Shown here one piece after another: positions 9,380 to 28,354 of a DNA stretch of 38,211 nt. The number at the start of each line of letters is the position of its first letter. The first letter of the stretch is position 1. The stretch spans positions 1-38,211 of the forward strand of contig JADGQV010000009.1 of NCBI GenBank assembly GCA_017881465.1. The letters are read 5' to 3'. A program made the position numbers and the translations under genes. A model generated the notes under the pieces. It was not told where the DNA came from. It did no database searches and saw only the letters and a list, made by a program, of their open reading frames with translations. Source of the stretch: Gemmatimonadaceae bacterium (GTDB taxonomy: Bacteria; Gemmatimonadota; Gemmatimonadetes; Gemmatimonadales; Gemmatimonadaceae).

Positions 9380-10114
9380 TTATGGGGACATCTCTCTCGC
9401 AATGGGAACCGCGGAATCTCCGTTCCAGTTCTCGCCGAATGAGGACGTCAGTGAACCGGGCTCGATCAGGAAAGTCATGCCTTTTCTCTCCGCGATTCCA
9501 GCCGAGACCAGGCGGCTCAGCGCCAGAGCGATCGATTCTCTCGTGGCACCGACCATCTCGCAGAGCAGTCGATGATGGGTGTTCTCCAGCTTGAGGCGGC
9601 CGTCGGATGTCGTGAAACTGCGGTCGGTGCTGAGATGCGTCAGCGTGGATATCAGACGCTGATCAACGTTCAGGGCCGCTAGCTCGTGAAGTTTCTCGAG
9701 CAGATAGGCTCGCTCCGACATTATCTGAGACAATAGGGGAATCGTCTGAGCGGGACGCTCCCTCACGAAGGCGCGGAACTGCGCTGCGCTTAGAAACATG
9801 GTCTTCGTTTCTTCAGATGCGTTTGCGTCCGTGACGTAGTGACTGTTGGGAGACAGTCCCTCGCTTCCAAATGTCTGTCCCGCGGTGGCGATGACAGGAA
9901 CGAATCCACGTCCAACCTTTATCTTGTTGCGCAGAATGACGTGGCCCTCGAGAACGATGAATACGCCGTCTGCCGGAACGCCGCGCTGATAGAGTTGAAA
10001 TCCGGGAGGCCAGTTTGCCTTCGCGCCGTACGCGCCGATGGGCGTTACTTCTTCGGGAGTGAGATGTGAGCGTCGCACTCCTGCTTGCCCGTTTCTCATC
10101 TGGCTGTCTTTCAT
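9380..10114 (-). CDS. Crp/Fnr-family transcriptional regulator
   Basis: A 244-residue regulator with a cyclic-nucleotide-binding-like beta-roll (about residues 30-130, containing FIVLEGHVIL and GQTFGSEGL), a dimer helix, and a C-terminal winged helix (about 165-225). The recognition helix reads ATRESIALALSRL; the Arg-Glu pair matches the two residues of E. coli CRP that read the GTGA half-site, while the third contact (Arg) is Leu here. No FNR-type N-terminal cysteine cluster is present. The phosphate-pocket signature of cAMP binders (RxS/T) is not obvious, so the effector is unknown. I prefer the ATG at 10114 over an upstream TTG at 10162, which would place the palindrome at 10147 inside the coding region. 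Confidence 0.83.
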   Translation of the reverse strand: MKDSQMRNGQAGVRRSHLTPEEVTPIGAYGAKANWPPGFQLYQRGVPADGVFIVLEGHVILRNKIKVGRGFVPVIATAGQTFGSEGLSPNSHYVTDANASEETKTMFLSAAQFRAFVRERPAQTIPLLSQIMSERAYLLEKLHELAALNVDQRLISTLTHLSTDRSFTTSDGRLKLENTHHRLLCEMVGATRESIALALSRLVSAGIAERKGMTFLIEPGSLTSSFGENWNGDSAVPIAREMSP

Positions 10115-10146
10115 TCGTTTCTCGTCGAGCAGTCGTCTAACGCAAT

Positions 10147-10160
10147 GTCCGGGCCCGGAC
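10147..10160. promoter_or_regulatory. 14-bp perfect palindrome upstream of the Crp-family gene
   Basis: GTCCGGGCCCGGAC is a perfect GC-rich palindrome centred about 40 bp upstream of the ATG at 10114 and about 30 bp past the stop of the M28 gene. It could be an operator of the regulator or a processing hairpin between two co-directional genes. There is no T-run. Confidence 0.4.
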
Positions 10161-10183
10161 AAGACGAGTGATGACTTCGCATT

Positions 10184-15132: not shown

Positions 15133-16350
15133 CTATTGGCCGATGATTCTCTCGAGGATCTGCACGCCACGCATCAGATCGTCCCGATCCATCACGAGCG
15201 GCGGAAGGATGCGGAGTGTGTGTTCTCCGGCTGTAAGCGCGAGCAGACCTTCGTCCCACCCGCGCTTCACGATCTCGTTCGCTGATTCGACCACATCGAG
15301 ACCCCAGATGTAACCGGTTCCACGAATCGCCCGCACCTTTCCGGAGCGCCGAGCGACCGTATCGAGCTGCTTCCCGAGCCATGCGCCGTTTTCACGAACG
15401 GCTCTCAGCAAAGATGGATCCGAGAGCCGGTCGACGACGTACCCAGCAACCGCAGCTACGAGAGGTCCGCCACCGAAGGTGGTTCCGTGATCTCCCGGCT
15501 GGATTGTCGCTCCGATTTCCTCTGACACGAGAACCGCGCCCATCGGCAACCCGCCCGCCAAAGGCTTGGCAAGCGTCAGCATGTCAGGAACGACTCCGAC
15601 GTTCTCGTACGCGAAAAAGTGTCCGGTGCGTCCAAGCCCGCATTGAATCTCGTCGAATATCAGAGCTATCCCGCGCTCGGTGGTCATTGCCCGAATGCGG
15701 CGAAGAAATTCGGAATCGAGTACGCGCACTCCGCCCTCACCCTGGATCGGCTCGACAATTACCGCGGCGACAGTTTCTCCATCGAGGACGGTATCGAGAT
15801 CACGAAGGTCGCGCTCGCAGATGGAAACCCCGCCGGCGAGTGGGCGGAATGGCGCGCGATACGACGGGCGATCGGTCGCGGCGAGAGACGCGAAGAGCCT
15901 GCCGTGAAAGCTTCCACGCAGAGCGATGATCTCGACCTTCGCATCGGTGCCGGTCTTCCTGGCCCACCGCCTCGCGAACTTGAACGCGCCCTCGTTCGCC
16001 TCCGCCCCTGAGTTGCAGAAAAACACCTGCGCTGCGAATGAGCGCTCGACTAGCTTGGCGGCTAGCTGCTCACCGGCCGCCGTTTGATAGAGGTTCGATG
16101 TATGGATCAGGCCTGTGCTCAGCGCCTCGCTGATCACCTGCGCAACCCCCGCATCTCCGTAACCAAGCGCATTCACTGCTATCCCGCTGGCAAAATCGAG
16201 ATATCGCTTGCCACCGGAGTCGATGAGCTCTACGCCTTCTCCCCTCACAAGCTGCATCGGTGCGCGCTTGTAGGTCGGAAGTAGGGCAGATGGCTCCGAA
16301 GAAGGAATGGTCACGACTTCCTCTTCGAGTGGGAGAGTGACGGCGGTCAT
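15133..16350 (-). CDS. argD: Acetylornithine aminotransferase
   Basis: A 405-residue class III PLP aminotransferase. FFCNSGAEANEGAFKFAR (about residues 110-127) is the cofactor-phosphate region, IFDEIQCGLGRTGHFFAYE (about 225-243) the Asp that pairs with the pyridine nitrogen, and TLAKPLAGGLPMGA contains the Schiff-base Lys (about 259). GTTFGGGPLVAA completes the phosphate site. The enzyme converts N-acetylglutamate semialdehyde to N-acetylornithine. Assignment as argD rather than ornithine or GABA transaminase rests on the locus: its ATG overlaps the argB stop by 4 bp (ATGA). Length is normal. Confidence 0.92.
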   Translation of the reverse strand: MTAVTLPLEEEVVTIPSSEPSALLPTYKRAPMQLVRGEGVELIDSGGKRYLDFASGIAVNALGYGDAGVAQVISEALSTGLIHTSNLYQTAAGEQLAAKLVERSFAAQVFFCNSGAEANEGAFKFARRWARKTGTDAKVEIIALRGSFHGRLFASLAATDRPSYRAPFRPLAGGVSICERDLRDLDTVLDGETVAAVIVEPIQGEGGVRVLDSEFLRRIRAMTTERGIALIFDEIQCGLGRTGHFFAYENVGVVPDMLTLAKPLAGGLPMGAVLVSEEIGATIQPGDHGTTFGGGPLVAAVAGYVVDRLSDPSLLRAVRENGAWLGKQLDTVARRSGKVRAIRGTGYIWGLDVVESANEIVKRGWDEGLLALTAGEHTLRILPPLVMDRDDLMRGVQILERIIGQ

Positions 16351-17114
16351 AGGGCAACGCTCTGAGATTGAGTGATGAAAGTGCCGCGTTCGCCATCGCT
16401 GAGACCGGCCAGATCGCAGATCCTCACACGGGCAACTCCAGCATTGAGTGCGGCTTCAGCCGATTCGAGCTTGGCCGCCATCCCGCCGACTGCAATGCCG
16501 TTCGCAGCCAGCTCACGGGCGGTTTCGGTGCTCAGGCTCGAAATGACTTCGCCCTCACCATCGCGAACGCCTTCGACATCGGCGATCAGTAGCAGCTCGT
16601 CCGCCTCGAGCGCGGCGGCAATAGCGGCGGCGGCATCGTCGCCATTTACGTTGAGCGGACCGCCATTCGGGCTGGTCGCGTTGTACCCAATCGGCGAGAT
16701 CACGGGCAAGTAACCCGCGTTCAGTAGAGTGCGAAGCAGATCGGCCTTTACAGTGACGGGTTGACCCGCAAATCCGAGAGACGCCGCGTCGATCAGTTCC
16801 GCGCCGATCAGAGCCCCATCTTCTCCAGATATGCCCACCGCGGGCAGACCGGCAGCAACCATCGCATTCACGAGTCGCTTGTTCACGACGCCCGACAGCA
16901 CCATGCGCAGAAGCTCGAGATCTCCCTCTGATGTGACACGCCGTCCGCCGACGAATGCTGGTTCCCTTCCCAGAGCGCTCTGCATTGCGGACATCTCGTC
17001 ACCGCCCCCGTGCACCACGCAAAGCTCTCCTGGGCCGGCATTCCACGCCTCGCGAAGGATAGTTGCCAGGTGTGAATCGGCCTGTGCCCGTCCTCCGATT
17101 TTCACGACCCGCAT
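16347..17114 (-). CDS. argB: Acetylglutamate kinase
   Basis: A 255-residue amino-acid kinase. VKIGGRAQ at the N-terminus, VVHGGGDEMS (about residues 33-42) and GRRVTSEGDLELLRMVLSG (about 57-75) are the ArgB nucleotide and substrate motifs; NVNGDDAAAAIAAAL (about 156-170) contains the Asp near the ATP phosphates, and GGMAAKLESA the conserved Lys. It is shorter than arginine-sensitive ArgB (about 300), lacking the N-terminal helix that mediates hexamer formation and arginine feedback, so control may rest on ArgR. LysZ kinases look similar but no LysW carrier gene is visible. Its ATG overlaps the argC stop by one base (TAATG). Confidence 0.92.
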   Translation of the reverse strand: MRVVKIGGRAQADSHLATILREAWNAGPGELCVVHGGGDEMSAMQSALGREPAFVGGRRVTSEGDLELLRMVLSGVVNKRLVNAMVAAGLPAVGISGEDGALIGAELIDAASLGFAGQPVTVKADLLRTLLNAGYLPVISPIGYNATSPNGGPLNVNGDDAAAAIAAALEADELLLIADVEGVRDGEGEVISSLSTETARELAANGIAVGGMAAKLESAEAALNAGVARVRICDLAGLSDGERGTFITQSQSVAL

Positions 17115-18088
17115 TATGCCGGCAACCCCGCCTGCTCACTCAGGCCCAGGAGAACGTTCGCGTTTTGCAGCGCCTGTCCCGCGGCACCTTTTACCAGGTT
17201 GTCGATCGCCGAAATGATGATGAGCGTGGGTTGGCGCACGTTGGCTGCCTTGGCAATGCTCACGCGCACGACGTTCCGGCGCACGACGTCGCGGAGCGAC
17301 GGCGGCTGGTCTGCGATCTCGATGAAGGGTTCCCCGCGATAACAATCGCGCCAGAGCGCCGACGGATCTTCTGCGTACTCGTTCACCGGCACGGTGATCG
17401 TCGCAAGAATTCCGCGAGCGACCGGAAGCAGGTGGGGCGTGAACAGTATGTCATTGTCCCTGCCACCCAGCTCTTTCGCAACCGCCTGCATCTCGGCGAT
17501 GTGCCGGTGCTCATTCCCCACGGCGTAGGCGCGGAAGTTCTCCGCGACCTCGGCGAACAGCAGATCGGGACGAGCGGAATAGCCGGCGCCGGTAACGCCA
17601 CTGGCAGCCGATACATTTATGGTAGCACCCGGCACTACCCAGCCTTCCTTGAGCAGTGGCGCGATCGCGAGCAAAATGGCAGTTGGGTAGCAACCGGGGT
17701 TCGCCACGATCTCCGCCCCCGGAATCTTCGCGCGCATCAGCTCGGTAAGACCATACGGCGCTTCAGTTTGATTGATTCCAGCGCCTGCCCCCGGTCTGAA
17801 ATCGGATGAGAGATCCACCACCCGTGCTCCGGTCGCGCGTGCGTTTCCGACCCACTTGGCAGATGCCCCATGCGGAAGCGCGGTGAAGACAACCTCCGCC
17901 TTGTTCAAGGGGGCGTCCTCGGTCGCGACATAAGTCACCTCCGTCACTCCAATGCGGGCGCGCTGCCCCCGCTGCTCGTTGGCAGAGGCGAAGGTGAGCT
18001 CGAGCCTGGGGTGCCGTGCGATCAGCCCGCACAGCTCCCGACCCGCATATCCGCTCGCGCCGAGGACTCCCACCGGAACTTTATGCAT
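17114..18088 (-). CDS. argC: N-acetyl-gamma-glutamyl-phosphate reductase
   Basis: A 324-residue dehydrogenase. VGVLGASGYAGRELCGLI (residues about 6-23) is the NADP-binding loop, NPGCYPTA (about 129-136) holds the catalytic Cys, and HRHIAEMQ supplies the His. It reduces N-acetylglutamyl phosphate to the semialdehyde, the third step of arginine synthesis. It is the first gene of argC-argB-argD, all overlapping by 1-4 bp. The ATG at 18088 lies inside an ARG-box dyad and about 7 bases below a candidate -10, so the message may be leaderless and directly repressible by ArgR. Confidence 0.94.
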   Translation of the reverse strand: MHKVPVGVLGASGYAGRELCGLIARHPRLELTFASANEQRGQRARIGVTEVTYVATEDAPLNKAEVVFTALPHGASAKWVGNARATGARVVDLSSDFRPGAGAGINQTEAPYGLTELMRAKIPGAEIVANPGCYPTAILLAIAPLLKEGWVVPGATINVSAASGVTGAGYSARPDLLFAEVAENFRAYAVGNEHRHIAEMQAVAKELGGRDNDILFTPHLLPVARGILATITVPVNEYAEDPSALWRDCYRGEPFIEIADQPPSLRDVVRRNVVRVSIAKAANVRQPTLIIISAIDNLVKGAAGQALQNANVLLGLSEQAGLPA

Positions 18089-18108
18089 AAGGAATGCATA
18101 ACATTACA
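18074..18108. promoter_or_regulatory. Paired ARG-box operator over the argC promoter and start codon
   Basis: TTATGCAT (18081-18088) and ATGCATAA (18094-18101) form a perfect dyad around a 5-bp centre. Read as two ARG boxes (consensus TGAAT-N4-ATTCA), the cores are 18074-18087 and 18095-18108 with 6 and 7 of 10 matches; the inner half-sites ATGCA and TGCAT are 7 bp apart, as in enteric double ARG boxes with 3-bp separation. The argG operator has the same geometry. Binding would cover the -10 and the ATG. Confidence 0.7.
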
Positions 18109-18123
18109 CTCCCTGCACGTCAA
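18095..18123 (-). promoter_or_regulatory. argCBD promoter, probably leaderless
   Basis: On the minus strand TTGACG (18118-18123) is followed after 17 bp by TATGCA (18095-18100). Transcription would begin about seven bases downstream, at or next to the A of the argC ATG (18088). The -10 coincides with an ARG-box half-site. Confidence 0.6.
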
Positions 18124-18160: not shown

Positions 18161-18177
18161 TGCTAAACTCACCTCCG
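18161..18177 (+). promoter_or_regulatory. Candidate extended -10 of argR
   Basis: TGCTAAACT (18161-18169) resembles an extended -10 element. Seven bases separate it from the GTG at 18177, so an argR mRNA would have little or no leader. No convincing -35 is seen and no Shine-Dalgarno sequence precedes the GTG. Confidence 0.35.
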
Positions 18178-18638
18178 TGGCCAACAAACGCGAACGACAC
18201 GACACAATCCTCGAGATCGTAGGCGCTCGAGTCGTGAGCAGCCAGGAGGATCTCCGGAAGATGCTGCTCCAACGGGGGTGGGACGTAACACAGGCGACGC
18301 TCTCCCGCGACCTCCGGGAGTTGCGGCTCGCCCGGGTCCCGACTCCGGAAGGCGCCAGATACGCAATTACAGACGGCAGCATAGAGGAAAGCAGAGCCGC
18401 GCTCGATACCCTACTGCCGCAGCTTTTCCTCCGCATCGATGGTGTTAGCGAGATGCTGGTTTTGCGCACGGTCCCTGGAGGCGCTCAGCCCATCGCCGCT
18501 GCTCTCGACGGCGAGGGATGGTCCGATGTCCTTGGCACCGTCGGAGGTGACGACACGATTCTGATCATCTGTCGCTCCGTCGCCGCCCGGGACCGCGTCC
18601 TCCGGCGCCTCAAGGCTCTCGCCGGAGAACCCGGATAA
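18177..18638 (+). CDS. argR: Arginine repressor
   Basis: A 153-residue ArgR. The N-terminal winged helix (about residues 1-70) has SSQEDLRKML and the recognition helix TQATLSRDLREL; the C-terminal oligomerisation and arginine-binding domain (about 80-153) contains GTVGGDDTILIICRS, the GTxxGDDT signature whose Asp pair binds L-arginine. ArgR hexamers bind paired ARG boxes and repress arginine synthesis. I chose the GTG at 18177 because it gives the normal length (about 150) and begins just before the conserved KRERHDTIL; the frame extends 18 codons upstream to 18123 without similarity. The gene is divergent from argC (88 bp apart) and 65 bp upstream of argG, and operators flank it on both sides. 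Confidence 0.92.
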   Translation: MANKRERHDTILEIVGARVVSSQEDLRKMLLQRGWDVTQATLSRDLRELRLARVPTPEGARYAITDGSIEESRAALDTLLPQLFLRIDGVSEMLVLRTVPGGAQPIAAALDGEGWSDVLGTVGGDDTILIICRSVAARDRVLRRLKALAGEPG

Positions 18639-18642
18639 AGCA

Positions 18643-18671
18643 TTGACGGGCCTGGCCGGACCGATTAAATA
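18643..18671 (+). promoter_or_regulatory. argGH promoter
   Basis: TTGACG (18643-18648) and TAAATA (18666-18671) are 17 bp apart, in the 65-bp gap after argR. Transcription would start near 18678, with a leader of about 26 nt carrying a GAGG motif (18695-18698) ahead of the GTG at 18704. The -10 lies inside ARG box 1. Confidence 0.6.
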
Positions 18672-18698
18672 TTCAGTCATACTGAATACTTATTGAGG
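18660..18698. promoter_or_regulatory. Tandem ARG boxes upstream of argG
   Basis: Two 18-bp ARG boxes (18660-18677 and 18681-18698) are separated by exactly 3 bp, the spacing of the enteric double boxes. Box cores are CGATT-AAAT-ATTCA (8 of 10 matches) and TGAAT-ACTT-ATTGA (9 of 10). The inner arms TATTCAGT and ACTGAATA form a perfect dyad around CAT. The boxes cover the -10, the start of transcription and the ribosome binding site. Confidence 0.82.
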
Positions 18699-18703
18699 CG
18701 CCT

Positions 18704-19966
18704 GTGATCCGTACGATTGCCCTTGCCTACTCCGGTGGGCTCGACACATCCATCATCGTCCCCTGGCTCAAGGAACGGTACGGCGCTCGCGTCATCTGCA
18801 TCGCCGCGGACATTGGCCAGGGAAACGAGCTGGAGGGCGTGCGGGCGAAAGCGATCGCATCGGGTGCCGACGAGTGCTACGTCGAAGATCTGCGCCAGGA
18901 ATTCGTGGAAAAGTTCGTGTGGCCCACCCTCCGCGCTGGCGCTATCTACGGTCGGAAGTACCTCCTCGGCACCTCAATGGGGCGCCCTCTCATCGCGCGC
19001 CGGCAAGTCGAGATTGCGCGCCAGGTTGGGGCCGACGCGCTGGCTCACGGCTGCACCGGCAAAGGGAACGACCAGGTTCGCTTCGAGCTGACGTACGCCG
19101 CCTTTGCGCCGGATCTCCCGATTATCGCGCCCTGGCGCGAGTGGGATATTCGGAGCCGCGAGGACGCGATTGCCTACGCCGAGTCCCACCGGATTCCCGT
19201 CGCGGCGACGAGGGAAAAGATCTATTCCCGTGACCGGAATATCTGGCATATCTCTCACGAAGGTGGCGTCCTCGAGCAGCCAGCCACCGCCCCACCGGCT
19301 GACCTGTTCATGCTAACGACCGCTCCGGAAAACGCTCCCGACGAGGCCGAGGAAGTCACGATCGGGTTCCTCAATGGAACTCCGGTGTCGGTAAATGGGG
19401 CCGAGCTCGACGCGGTGGACCTCGTCGTCGCCCTCAATACGATTGGTGGACGGCATGGCGTCGGCCGAATCGATCTCGTCGAGGATCGTCTGGTCGGGAT
19501 GAAGTCGCGTGGCGTCTACGAAACCCCAGGCGGTACCCTGCTCTATTCCGCTCACAGCGAGTTGGAGCAGCTGGTGCTCGATCGCCGCACTCTTGCCGCC
19601 AAGGATAACATCGCTCCACGCTACGCGGATCTCGTGTACGAAGGCCGCTGGTGGACAACCGAGCGCGAGGCATATGACGCTTTCGTGAACGTGACACAGG
19701 AGCGCGTCACCGGGTTCGTGACACTCAAGCTCTTCAAGGGATCTGCATCGGTGGTCGGGCGCGAGAGCGAGTACGCTCTTTACGACGAGCGTTTCGTCAC
19801 GTTCGGCGAAGACGACGTTTACGAGCAGAGCGACGCTGCCGGATTCATACGCCTCTACGGACTCTCTGCGCGCGTTCGCGCCATCCGGGATCAGGAGCTG
19901 GCTGCGGCTGCACAGCGCAAGAGCGAAACGAAGGCTAAGGAGCCCGCGGCTCTGGCCATAGCTTGA
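18704..19966 (+). CDS. argG: Argininosuccinate synthase
   Basis: A 420-residue enzyme joining citrulline and aspartate with [12 protein letters not shown] (residues 8-16) is the ATP-pyrophosphatase P-loop, [13 protein letters not shown] (about 113-125) the conserved substrate loop, and [15 protein letters not shown] (about 178-192) another family signature. The C-terminal helix ends in a variable Lys/Ala-rich tail (from about 405). The GTG at 18704 starts immediately before the conserved [11 protein letters not shown] and after a GAGG motif. It lies downstream of paired ARG boxes, so ArgR repression is expected. Its end lies 17 bp before the argH ATG; the two form an operon. Confidence 0.96.
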
Positions 19967-19971
19967 CCGGC

Positions 19972-19977
19972 AAGGAG
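19972..19977 (+). promoter_or_regulatory. Ribosome binding site that sets the argH start
   Basis: AAGGAG lies six bases upstream of the ATG at 19984. It decides that start over an in-frame TTG at 19963, which overlaps the end of argG and has no such signal. Confidence 0.75.
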
Positions 19978-19983
19978 ACCGCC

Positions 19984-21414
19984 ATGTCGGACCACGCATC
20001 TCACAAGCTATGGGGAGGACGCTTCTCGACTCCCACCGCGGCTGCTCTGGAGGCACTCAACCGCTCCATCGGCACCGATTATCGCCTCTGGCCGTTCGAT
20101 ATCAATCTATCTCAGGCTTGGGCCGTGGCTCTTTGGGGAGCTGGAGTCCTGACGCTCGAGGAAAGCAAGAAAATCGAGCGCGGGCTCGCTATGGTCGGCC
20201 AGAAGCTCGCGGCCGGAGCGCAGCCGCTCTCATCCGATGAGGATGTGCACACGCTGATCGACCGGATGCTTCACGATGAAGTGGGGGACGTAGCCTCGAA
20301 GCTTCACACCGGCCGCAGCCGGAATGATCAGGTAGCTACGGCGACGCGCCTCTGGTCGATGGACGCGTGTACGAAGCTCGATATCACCGTCCGCAATCTG
20401 CAGCGGGTCATGTTCGATCACGCCGCGACGTTGGGCGACGTGCTGATGCCGGCATACACGCATCTGCAGCGCGCTCAACCCGTATCCGCTGCACACTGGA
20501 TGTTGTCGCACTTCTGGCCGCTCGAGCGGGATCGGGCGCGGATTGCTTCGGCATCACGGGCCGCGGCGGTGCTGCCGCTCGGCTCGGGTGCGATCGCGGG
20601 GTGTGCGTTCCCGATCTCACGAGTGCTCCTCCAGGGCAGCCTCGGTTTCAGCTCTGTGTCGCAGAACAGCATTGACGCCGTTGGGGACAGAGATTTCGTG
20701 GCCGAGTTGTTGTTCGCGGTGGCAATGACGGCCACGCATCTCTCGCGACTCGCCGAAGATCTGATCATTTACGGCTCGAGCGAGTTCGGATTCGTTCAGT
20801 TCGGCGATGCGTTCACAACGGGCTCGAGCATGATGCCGCAGAAACGCAATCCCGATGCGTTGGAGCTTGCGCGTGGATCAGGTGCGCGCGCCATCGGTGA
20901 TCTGACGACGCTTCTGGCGACTCTCAAGGGCTTGCCCAGCGGCTATAACAAGGATCTGCAGGACGACAAGCGCGTGTTGTTCGACGCGGTTGACACGATT
21001 CTGCTCGTGCTCCCGGCTGTGGCCGGGGCGCTCCAGGAGATTCGGTTCAACGCCAGGCGAATGCGCGCCGCGCTCTCGAGCAGCATGATGGCGACTGATC
21101 TCGCCGACTATCTGGTAGAGAAGGGAGCCACCTTTCGCGAAGCCCATTCTGCAGTCGGGTCACTGATTCGCGAAAGTGAGCGCGAGGACTGCGAGCTTGA
21201 CGCTCTGCCCAACGCGTCGTTCAGGGCTGCGCATTCACTGTTCGGCGACGACGTTCTCGACTGGCTCGAGCCGGCGCGCTCGGTGGCGCGTCGTGACGTT
21301 CCCGGCGGTACAGGTCCAACCGCTCTCAGCGCGCAGCTTCGCTTCGCGCATGAGGCGCTGTGGCCTGTAGCCGAAGCAGCACGAGGTAACGAACTGGTGC
21401 TTCGCACGATCTAG
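19984..21414 (+). CDS. argH: Argininosuccinate lyase
   Basis: A 476-residue member of the fumarase/aspartase superfamily. KLWGGRFSTP (residues about 7-16) opens the domain, DEDVHTLIDRML and LHTGRSRNDQVATATRLW (about 108-125) are substrate-binding stretches, YTHLQRAQPVSAAHWML holds the catalytic His region, and GSSMMPQKRNPD (about 280-291) is the fumarate-lyase signature with the catalytic Ser loop. It releases fumarate to give arginine, the last step of the pathway. It is co-transcribed with argG and followed by a strong terminator at 21432. Length is normal. Confidence 0.95.
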   Translation: MSDHASHKLWGGRFSTPTAAALEALNRSIGTDYRLWPFDINLSQAWAVALWGAGVLTLEESKKIERGLAMVGQKLAAGAQPLSSDEDVHTLIDRMLHDEVGDVASKLHTGRSRNDQVATATRLWSMDACTKLDITVRNLQRVMFDHAATLGDVLMPAYTHLQRAQPVSAAHWMLSHFWPLERDRARIASASRAAAVLPLGSGAIAGCAFPISRVLLQGSLGFSSVSQNSIDAVGDRDFVAELLFAVAMTATHLSRLAEDLIIYGSSEFGFVQFGDAFTTGSSMMPQKRNPDALELARGSGARAIGDLTTLLATLKGLPSGYNKDLQDDKRVLFDAVDTILLVLPAVAGALQEIRFNARRMRAALSSSMMATDLADYLVEKGATFREAHSAVGSLIRESEREDCELDALPNASFRAAHSLFGDDVLDWLEPARSVARRDVPGGTGPTALSAQLRFAHEALWPVAEAARGNELVLRTI

Positions 21415-21431: not shown

Positions 21432-21461
21432 AAAAAAGGCGCATAATTGTGCGCCTTTTTT
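21432..21461. terminator. Bidirectional intrinsic terminator between argH and the barrel gene
   Basis: A run of six A, stem GGCGCA, loop TAATTG, stem TGCGCC and a run of six T. The hairpin works on both strands: it follows argH by 17 bp and lies 5 bp past the stop of the converging gene. Confidence 0.92.
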
Positions 21462-21466
21462 CAAAC

Positions 21467-22027
21467 CTAGAACATCAGTCCGAGCGTGATTGGGACAAAG
21501 TGAATTACACCACCTTTCGCCGGCTCGCGTGATATGAAGTGGTATCTCGACTCCAGGAAGCTCGCGATGGGTCCCAATCCGAATGTCACTCCGAGTCCTG
21601 CATTCAGTCCGAAATGGTTTTCCGACTTGGATCCCGCTGAATCGAGCCTGGTGTTGTACAGCCCTCCGCCTGCGATGATGTAGCTCTTTGCGCTCGTTCC
21701 CGGGAAGGCGTAGATCACATTGCCCAGTAGACCGGCGATTCGAAAACCGTAAGTATTGGTCGGTCCGGCTTGCGTCGAAACGACGTTCTTGCGCGAGAAG
21801 TTGTTATAGATCCCGTCAAATCGAAGCCCAATCGATAGCTCGGCTACGCCGACCGCGAGGGCGACTATCCCATTGAATCCAGTAACCTGAGTGTCGCCCA
21901 ACTTCCCAACGGGTATGGCCGCGCCTCCGCCAATTCCGAGGGCATACGTCTTCTGACCGGCTGCTTCATTTGAGAGTACAACTGAAGCAAGAACCGAAAT
22001 AGCTATGACTTGAAGAAGTCGCTTCAT
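21467..22027 (-). CDS. Outer-membrane beta-barrel-like protein, function unknown
   Basis: A 186-residue protein with a signal peptide (MKRLLQVIAISVLASVVLS, cleavage near AAGQ) that sets the ATG at 22027. The mature part alternates amphipathic strands rich in Gly and aromatic residues (KTYALGIGGGAAIPVG, ELSIGLRFDGIY, GFRIAGLLGNVIYAF, YIIAGGGLYNTRLD, GLNAGLGVTFGLG) and ends in FVPITLGLMF, a C-terminal barrel strand with aromatic end residue. This matches small eight-stranded outer-membrane barrels of the OmpA/OmpW or porin-family (OMP_b-brl) kind. No enzymatic motif is seen. Confidence 0.78.
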   Translation of the reverse strand: MKRLLQVIAISVLASVVLSNEAAGQKTYALGIGGGAAIPVGKLGDTQVTGFNGIVALAVGVAELSIGLRFDGIYNNFSRKNVVSTQAGPTNTYGFRIAGLLGNVIYAFPGTSAKSYIIAGGGLYNTRLDSAGSKSENHFGLNAGLGVTFGLGPIASFLESRYHFISREPAKGGVIHFVPITLGLMF

Positions 22028-22127: not shown

Positions 22128-22153
22128 AATTATCCTCAAATATTAGGATAATT
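22128..22153. promoter_or_regulatory. 26-bp perfect dyad abutting the MerR-like gene start
   Basis: AATTATCCT (22128-22136) and AGGATAATT (22145-22153) are perfect 9-bp inverted arms around an 8-bp AT-rich centre. The right arm ends one base before the ATG at 22155. Such a dyad is the expected operator form for a dimeric MerR-like protein, which the next gene encodes. Confidence 0.72.
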
Positions 22154-22154
22154 T

Positions 22155-22547
22155 ATGGCTCGTGCGTATACTATTGCCACAGCGGCACTTACCATAGGAA
22201 CTCCCATCAAGTGGCTCGACAACGTCTTATCGCACCAGCGCGTTTCTGGAGTCGCGCAGGAGCGCCAGGGAGTATCTCGTCGGCTCACAGTTGAGGGCTT
22301 GGTTGTGTTGGCGTTAGCAGTTTTGCTGATCCAAGAACTCGGGCTGCCCACGTCAAGGGCGATCGCAGTGGCCGAGGGTCTCGCGAAGAACCAAGGTCGA
22401 TTTGCCGGGTCACGAGGATTGAATCTCGCACTCGACATATCGTCATTTCGGGCAGAGTTGCTCGAACGGCTGGAAACCGCCGTCGAAATCGCGCCCGTCC
22501 CAAGACGTGGTCGTCCCCCAAAAACCCAAACGGGGCGCCTCGACTGA
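22155..22547 (+). CDS. MerR-like DNA-binding protein with AT-hook-like tail
   Basis: A 130-residue protein I do not recognise as a named gene. The first 75 residues follow the MerR winged-helix pattern: YTIATAALTIGTPIKWLDN as helix-turn-helix, then QGVSRRLTVEGLVVLALAVL and LIQELGLPTSRAIAVAEGL as wing and second helix pair. The C-terminus carries RRGRPPK (about residues 116-122), an AT-hook-like minor-groove motif. No cysteine or effector domain is present. A perfect AT-rich dyad lies directly upstream of the ATG, suggesting self-regulation. There is no Shine-Dalgarno sequence. Alternatives are an antitoxin-like repressor, but no toxin gene is adjacent. Confidence 0.6.
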   Translation: MARAYTIATAALTIGTPIKWLDNVLSHQRVSGVAQERQGVSRRLTVEGLVVLALAVLLIQELGLPTSRAIAVAEGLAKNQGRFAGSRGLNLALDISSFRAELLERLETAVEIAPVPRRGRPPKTQTGRLD

Positions 22548-27751: not shown

Positions 27752-28273
27752 TTACTGAACCGTGATGACACCCTTCATGTTCAGAGCAAGGTGTGGAACG
27801 CAATGATACGGGTACTGGCCGGGTTTGATGTTGCCGAACGAGATCGTGACCGACTCGCCGGGGTTCATCTTCATGTTGCTGGAGAGCTCACCCATCTTGT
27901 CCGTGCCCATGTTGGCATCGAGCTGGGCTTTGACATCGGGCGAAATCGTTGCGGGATCGAACGCGACGTTGTGTGGACCGCCGCCCACGACCACGAACTT
28001 GACGCCATCTCCCTGCTTAATCGTGAAGTTGGAGGGCTCGAACCGATAGCCCTTTGCATCTCCGAGCATGTTTACCGTCTTGGTTACACCGGTAATTGGA
28101 GCCATCGCGACAGCGCCGCCAGTCGTGCCGGTGGTTGTCGTACCGGTAGTGGTAGTCGTCGTCGAGCTCGTATCCACCGCGACGTGCGTCGTATCAGCAG
28201 GCTTCTTTTCTCCGCCTGCGCAGGCACCGAGCGTAATTACTCCAACCGCAACCGCGAATCCGTAGAACCGCAT
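27752..28273 (-). CDS. Type 1 copper (plastocyanin/azurin-like) lipoprotein
   Basis: A 173-residue cupredoxin. MRFYGFAVAVGVITLGAC is a lipoprotein signal with lipobox LGAC; a Thr-rich linker (about residues 35-50) follows. The cupredoxin domain has FTIKQGDGVKFVVVGGGPHN (first His ligand about residue 103) and YPYHCVPHLALNMKG, giving Cys, second His and Met of the type 1 site. It is a periplasmic or surface electron carrier. The ATG at 28273 gives the signal; upstream frame lacks it. A CRP-consensus site overlaps its -35. Function as a carrier for a nitrite reductase or oxidase is possible but unsupported by neighbours. Confidence 0.88.
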   Translation of the reverse strand: MRFYGFAVAVGVITLGACAGGEKKPADTTHVAVDTSSTTTTTTGTTTTGTTGGAVAMAPITGVTKTVNMLGDAKGYRFEPSNFTIKQGDGVKFVVVGGGPHNVAFDPATISPDVKAQLDANMGTDKMGELSSNMKMNPGESVTISFGNIKPGQYPYHCVPHLALNMKGVITVQ

Positions 28274-28314
28274 CTTTATCAGGCCTCCCAGAGCCGTACA
28301 GTAGTGCACTTACA

Positions 28315-28344
28315 AGTTTATTTTTTTACTTCACAGATTGTGAA
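28315..28344 (-). promoter_or_regulatory. Promoter of the cupredoxin gene
   Basis: On the minus strand TTCACA (28339-28344) and TAAACT (28315-28320) lie 18 bp apart. Transcription would start near 28307. The -35 is part of the CRP-type palindrome. Confidence 0.5.
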
Positions 28345-28354
28345 TTTATTCACA
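28330..28354. promoter_or_regulatory. CRP-type site with a third half-site
   Basis: TGTGAATTTATTCACA (28339-28354) is a perfect dyad and a perfect match to the CRP consensus TGTGA-N6-TCACA. A further TTCACA at 28330-28335 pairs with the same TGTGAA, giving three alternating half-sites. The centre lies about 40 bp upstream of the predicted cupredoxin start of transcription, the class II activation position. Confidence 0.75.

Follow-up and report, generated by a model that had tools for sequence, protein, structure and literature searches.

The arginine repressor gene of a soil Gemmatimonadota bacterium, argR, is located between argC and argG, raising the question of whether the tandem imperfect palindromes at 18660-18698, ahead of argG, serve as an operator for that repressor and, if so, which other genes carry the same site. 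The window considered here, i.e., the whole stretch of DNA that was analysed (38,211 bp), corresponds to contig 113 of a 2.58-Mb Gemmatimonadaceae genome. It includes argC, argB and argD, ordered in this manner on the minus strand and divergent from argR, argG and argH on the plus strand:

15133-16350, minus strand: argD (TIGR00707, 414.5 bits)
16347-17114, minus strand: argB (TIGR00761, 201.8 bits)
17114-18088, minus strand: argC (TIGR01850, 297.8 bits), with its start codon inside the right half-site of its own operator
18177-18638, plus strand: argR, arginine repressor (PF01316, PF02863 and TIGR01529), with a GTG start picked by homology
18704-19966, plus strand: argG, with a GTG start (NF001770, 590.4 bits)
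19963-21414, plus strand: argH (TIGR00838, 515.3 bits)

The mechanical ORF of argR begins with an ATG at 18123; homology favours the GTG at 18177. The predicted product matches PF01316 (N-terminal winged-helix domain, 65.0 bits) and PF02863 (C-terminal arginine-binding domain, 76.4 bits) above cut-off, as well as TIGR01529 (131.0 bits, with a cut-off of 130.45), and is the sole match to PF01316 in the genome. Its relatives in the PDB are Bacillus subtilis AhrC (1f9n), the closest solved structure by sequence, and the arginine repressor entries 3ere, 3fhz, 3laj and 3lap. Two stretches, VTQATLSRD and GDDTI, align to AhrC and correspond to what we take to be the recognition helix and the GDDTI motif, respectively. 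The presence of the GDDTI motif is consistent with a hexamer that employs arginine as co-repressor.

Other features were seen elsewhere in the window. The sequence AAAAGGCGCATAATTGTGCGCCTTTT (21434-21459) is a likely bidirectional terminator between argH and a convergent gene at 21467. At 22128-22153, an AT-rich palindrome, AATTATCCTCAAATATTAGGATAATT, is found directly ahead of a 130-residue ORF (22155-22547) for which no Pfam match was obtained; in L033, which, like L032 considered below, is a Gemmatimonadetes metagenome genome, a small gene after argH has a similar palindrome, TATCCTC...GAGGATA, ahead of it. A perfect TGTGA-N6-TCACA dyad of the CRP/FNR type, TGTGAATTTATTCACA (28339-28354), lies between a cupredoxin-like gene (27752-28309, minus strand) and hisA (28427, plus strand), and a gene for a Crp-type regulator is present at 9380-10162.

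Examination of the region ahead of argG revealed the following elements:

18643-18648, plus strand: putative -35 element of argG, TTGACG, with TTGAC invariant across the argG loci of the genus
18660-18677, plus strand: ARG box 1 of the argG operator, core CGATT-AAAT-ATTCA, 8/10, kept across the genus
18665-18671, plus strand: putative -10 element of argG, inside ARG box 1, TTAAAT with N16 or TAAATA with N17, of weak consensus
18670-18688, no strand assigned: central dyad, perfect 8+3+8, TATTCAGT-CAT-ACTGAATA, containing the argG inner half-sites
18681-18698, plus strand: ARG box 2 of the argG operator, core TGAAT-ACTT-ATTGA, 9/10, kept across the genus
18695-18698, plus strand: GAGG, putative Shine-Dalgarno sequence of argG, at the end of ARG box 2, as read from the sequence

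When scored by script against TGAAT-N4-ATTCA, the core of box 1, CGATTAAATATTCA, starting at 18662, gave 8/10 matches and that of box 2, TGAATACTTATTGA, starting at 18683, gave 9/10, in agreement with the sequence itself and with the original prediction. The gap between the two 18-bp boxes is 3 bp, such that the claim of enteric spacing also stood, the canonical Escherichia coli design being one in which a pair of 18-bp boxes, with 3 bp between them, overlaps the promoter (PMC6640053, PMC3293853). The inner half-sites, ATTCA (18671-18675) and TGAAT (18683-18687), are separated by 7 bp and, as had been noted, form a perfect dyad. The site therefore presents the form of an ArgR operator, namely a pair of imperfect 18-bp palindromes whose cores are TGNAT...ATNCA, separated by 2-3 bp. 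With a score of 17/20, the argG pair is the top-scoring tandem in the window, as compared to a maximum of 15 among 60 simulated windows, and 20,000 simulations based on the composition of the local 66-bp intergenic region never reached 17/20. The pattern ATKCA-N7-TGMAT has two matches in the window, against an expectation of 0.09, with two matches being obtained in none of 100 shuffles, and is found at only four places in the whole genome, two of which are argC and argG. Matches to this pattern at C55 and C99 were rejected as targets; the genes that they fall within, or at the start of, have no connection to arginine (dihydropyrimidinase-like and pyruvate phosphate dikinase-like, named by eye from their translations), and a fuller model did not recover these matches, which were taken as chance occurrences.

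To gauge conservation, 17 congeners containing argR were compared and the window's own genome was added, giving 18 argG loci. In the type I gene order, as in the window, argC is divergent from argR-argG, whereas in the type II order (L014-L019), argG is divergent from argR-argC. The argG site and its N7 spacing are conserved across the 18 loci and the flanks diverge, with the GATTAAATAT.C and TGAATA.TTAT columns of the footprint being near 2 bits and the N7 spacer and flanks mostly at about 0.2-0.9. Type II species present ATACG (ATACA in L018) as the left half-site at argG, such that the dyad is lost, and the right box and the ATTAAATAT core are retained. This argues that it is the boxes, and not the perfect dyad, that are kept by selection. 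As a separate observation, argR is inverted between L014-L019 and L002-L013 of this one genus, with the operators remaining with their own target gene.

The conserved TTGAC upstream of the boxes was found at both argG and argC. At argG, it is present in 18 of 18 loci of the genus; its distance to the right half-site is the same in 17 of these and shorter by 1 bp in L013. From this, we infer a promoter; a strict consensus promoter scan at argG gave no match. As such, of the earlier claim that the boxes lie over the -10 element of a TTGACG-N17 promoter, the TTGACG portion is borne out by its invariant TTGAC, and the putative -10 element is weaker than that claim suggests. Translation of argG would start at the GTG at 18704, with the GAGG of box 2 upstream, unlike the layout at argC and the argA-like gene described below.

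The two-box geometry had likewise been noted at argC, and is indeed found there, with ATGCA and TGCAT also being 7 bp apart:

18072-18110, minus strand: argC operator, comprising boxes at 18093-18110 and 18072-18089, with the inner dyad ATGCA-N7-TGCAT at 18083-18099
18118-18123, minus strand: putative -35 element of argC, TTGACG, followed by N17 to TATGCA (18095-18100) and then 6 nt to the ATG (18086-18088)

Because the outer half-sites of argC are weak, the signal there is mainly the central dyad. Across 17 loci (the L011 region being masked), the argC operator, TGYAATGTTATGCA-N7-TGCATAA, is almost invariant, and TTGAC is found at a fixed distance in 16 of the 17 argC loci of the genus.

The difference between TGAAT at argG and TGCAT at argC had been ascribed to one repressor with a relaxed third half-site base. 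In support of this, L013 (genome G001) presents TGCAT at argG, where its congeners present TGAAT, and in L032, the arrangement of the window is swapped, with TGAAT at argC and TGCAT at argG. Among family argC right half-sites, TGCAT is seen in most genera and TGAAT in several (L253, L255-L257, L264 and L268). Together, these sites show TGAAT and TGCAT to exchange at orthologous positions. The relaxed base is not new in itself, both letters already appearing in published consensuses, i.e., TGAAT in E. coli, TGCAT in Streptomyces and ATKCA in B. subtilis, where the consensus CATGAATAAAAATKCAAK permits the third-base change (PMC5291005).

Further targets were sought with R1, a sequence-only model built from 29 distinct argG and argC sites and run over 31 genomes. 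In the congeners, R1 recovers the argG and argC sites, that is, its own building set. In 16 genomes, one further place each was obtained, with E-values (about 0.005-0.2) that are weak by themselves, yet all 16 places front one orthologous acetyltransferase gene, the site in the window's genome being C161:1664. The product is a GNAT protein of 190-200 residues (PF00583) that matches the ArgA models PRK05279 (1e-20) and TIGR01890 (1e-17), as well as amino-acid acetyltransferases in the PDB. Because it scores under the equivalog cut-offs of amino-acid N-acetyltransferase models (93.5 vs. 154 and 73.9 vs. 344 bits), the gene is termed argA-like. A role in arginine synthesis is supported by the failure to find argJ (TIGR00120 gave no match in this 93%-complete genome), by the presence of an argA relative in 40 of 41 family genomes and by its proximity to R1 sites, being in many of these genomes only a few kb away on the same contig. 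Matches to argE in the genome were found only under the TIGR01892 cut-off.

No ARG box was found in argF upstream regions across the genus and none was seen upstream of carA, pointing to a regulon narrower than in E. coli. The targets that had been expected, argF, argJ and carAB, thus failed to appear, with the argA-like gene instead being the third. As an aside, in the Acidobacteria L075 and L076, clear tandem TGAAT boxes are found upstream of an argF-related gene, unlike argF of the window's genus; the L076 example reads TGTAATTATTCATAAGAGTGAATAAAAATTCA.

At the level of the family, an R1 match (E <= 3) was obtained in 45 of 49 genomes and in 29 of 30 genera, 3 of the 49 genomes belonging to the window's own genus. 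A composite site was found at argC, argG, argR or the argA-like gene in all 27 family loci examined, these being the best match per genome, such that the figure does not describe genome-wide precision. The site accordingly recurs at other arginine genes of the genome and in relatives. The enrichment upstream of arginine genes in related genomes, strong and found where it had been looked for, together with the presence of argR in the same cluster, upholds the proposal of a coordinated regulon under one repressor. In other families of the order, the argG operator has an inner spacing of 6, i.e., boxes 2 bp apart, a spacing shared with argR of E. coli, where boxes are otherwise generally 3 bp apart (PMC3293853). 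A spacing-6 argG model re-finds argG in genomes outside its building set (e.g., G076, G060, G074, G044, G019, G058, G040 and G054).

The argC promoter reads TTGACG-N17-TATGCA-N6-ATG and that of the argA-like gene TTGCGC-N17-TATACA-N6-GTG. In both, the right half-site, [AG]TGCATAA, opens with the start codon, a layout directly visible in 15 of 16 argA-like genes; in the sixteenth (L204), the palindrome is read on the opposite strand and, by inspection, its reverse complement is GTGCATAATCAC. Across the family, the dyad starts exactly 11 nt before argC, with a spacing of 7, in 21 of 25 loci examined. No Shine-Dalgarno sequence is visible immediately before the argC or argA-like start codon. Because these genes start within the right half-site, 6 nt past the predicted -10 element and with no such sequence, their mRNAs are predicted to be leaderless. 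We thus lean toward the view that argC throughout the family, along with the argA-like gene in the window's genus, would be leaderless, with a start codon that is part of an ArgR half-site, such that the constraint of repressor binding would fix the first codons (Met-His-Lys or Met-His-Asn) and ArgR would cover the -10 element, transcription start and start codon in one step.

The 19-bp inverted repeat at argG could also be imagined to act at the RNA level, giving the argG leader an attenuator or a hairpin that blocks translation, rather than as protein-binding DNA, given its perfect 8-bp stem, 3-nt loop and position just ahead of the Shine-Dalgarno sequence. However, the type II left half-site, ATACG or ATACA, pairs poorly with TGAAT and the box sequences are still conserved, the predicted argG start point falls at the left arm or past it, neither a T-run nor a terminator-like site is seen, and at argC and argA the same motif overlaps the start codon of an mRNA predicted to be leaderless. 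As the type II species do not keep the dyad, a hairpin was rejected as very improbable. Little credence can likewise be given to the dyad being the operator of another regulator, whether a dimeric repressor or an activator. Although the central part alone resembles a simple 17-19-bp palindromic operator, the box sequence, 3-bp spacing and half-sites fit published ArgR consensuses (PMC5291005, PMC6640053), sites of this type gather at arginine genes throughout the family and the neighbouring regulator gene is argR. Finally, promoters are AT-rich and ARG boxes both AT-rich and degenerate, but a chance resemblance can be dismissed given the genome-wide pattern count, the shuffles and simulations, the R1 scans of genus and family, and the conservation of the boxes above their flanks in the genus footprint.

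It is thus highly likely that 18660-18698 is an operator of the ArgR encoded immediately upstream, acting within an arginine feedback regulon. Against this can be set the weak -10 element of argG, the degenerate outer half-sites, especially at argC, the lack of a site at argF and carA, and the score of the argA-like product under the equivalog cut-offs. The sites, their conservation and genome-wide specificity, the identity of ArgR and the switching of the half-site base were established by computation; arginine dependence, hexamer binding and repression are drawn from characterised ArgR proteins. By this reasoning, when arginine is plentiful, arginine-loaded hexameric ArgR would bind the two 18-bp boxes at argG, covering the -10 element of the argGH promoter together with the stretch that is transcribed first, and blocking transcription by occluding RNA polymerase. 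TGAAT and TGCAT would both be usable half-sites. ArgR would also bind two further operators, the equivalent one over the argCBD promoter and another at the argA-like N-acetylglutamate synthase gene elsewhere in the genome, such that the committing and last steps of arginine synthesis would be shut off together. The argG operator is, as such, very probably one of three sites, at argC, argG and the argA-like gene, of a classical feedback switch in a phylum that has been little studied.

Like the E. coli system, with its boxes over the promoter, this one combines tandem boxes, here over a predicted promoter, with TGAAT half-sites (PMC6640053, PMC3293853), yet differs in that argC presents TGCAT, the argC and argA-like operators contain the start codon, and argF and carA have no site. 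Streptomyces ArgR shares the TGCAT half-site (consensus AWTGCATRWWYATGCAWT, PMC5291005) and tandem boxes at argC and argG, and one predicted Streptomyces ARG box overlaps a start codon (PMC3293853). By contrast, the argG half-sites are TGAAT in nearly all species of the window's genus and, unlike in the Streptomyces argCJBDR operon, argR is here divergent from argC or argG. In B. subtilis, the argC operator also differs, with boxes 11 bp apart and a single box inside the gene (PMC3293853).

In the literature searched, with most subscription journals lying outside the search, no paper on ArgR in Gemmatimonadota was found. It is very probable that what is described here is an ordinary ArgR operator and regulon, with the novelty lying in the phylum, the argA-like target and the operators in which a start codon is embedded. 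The analysis offers a concrete predicted ArgR regulon for Gemmatimonadota, in which orthologous operators of a single repressor family switch the third base of their half-sites, and in which a repressor site would double as the first codons of two genes. Moreover, the motif marks out the enzyme that is likely to begin arginine synthesis in these genomes.
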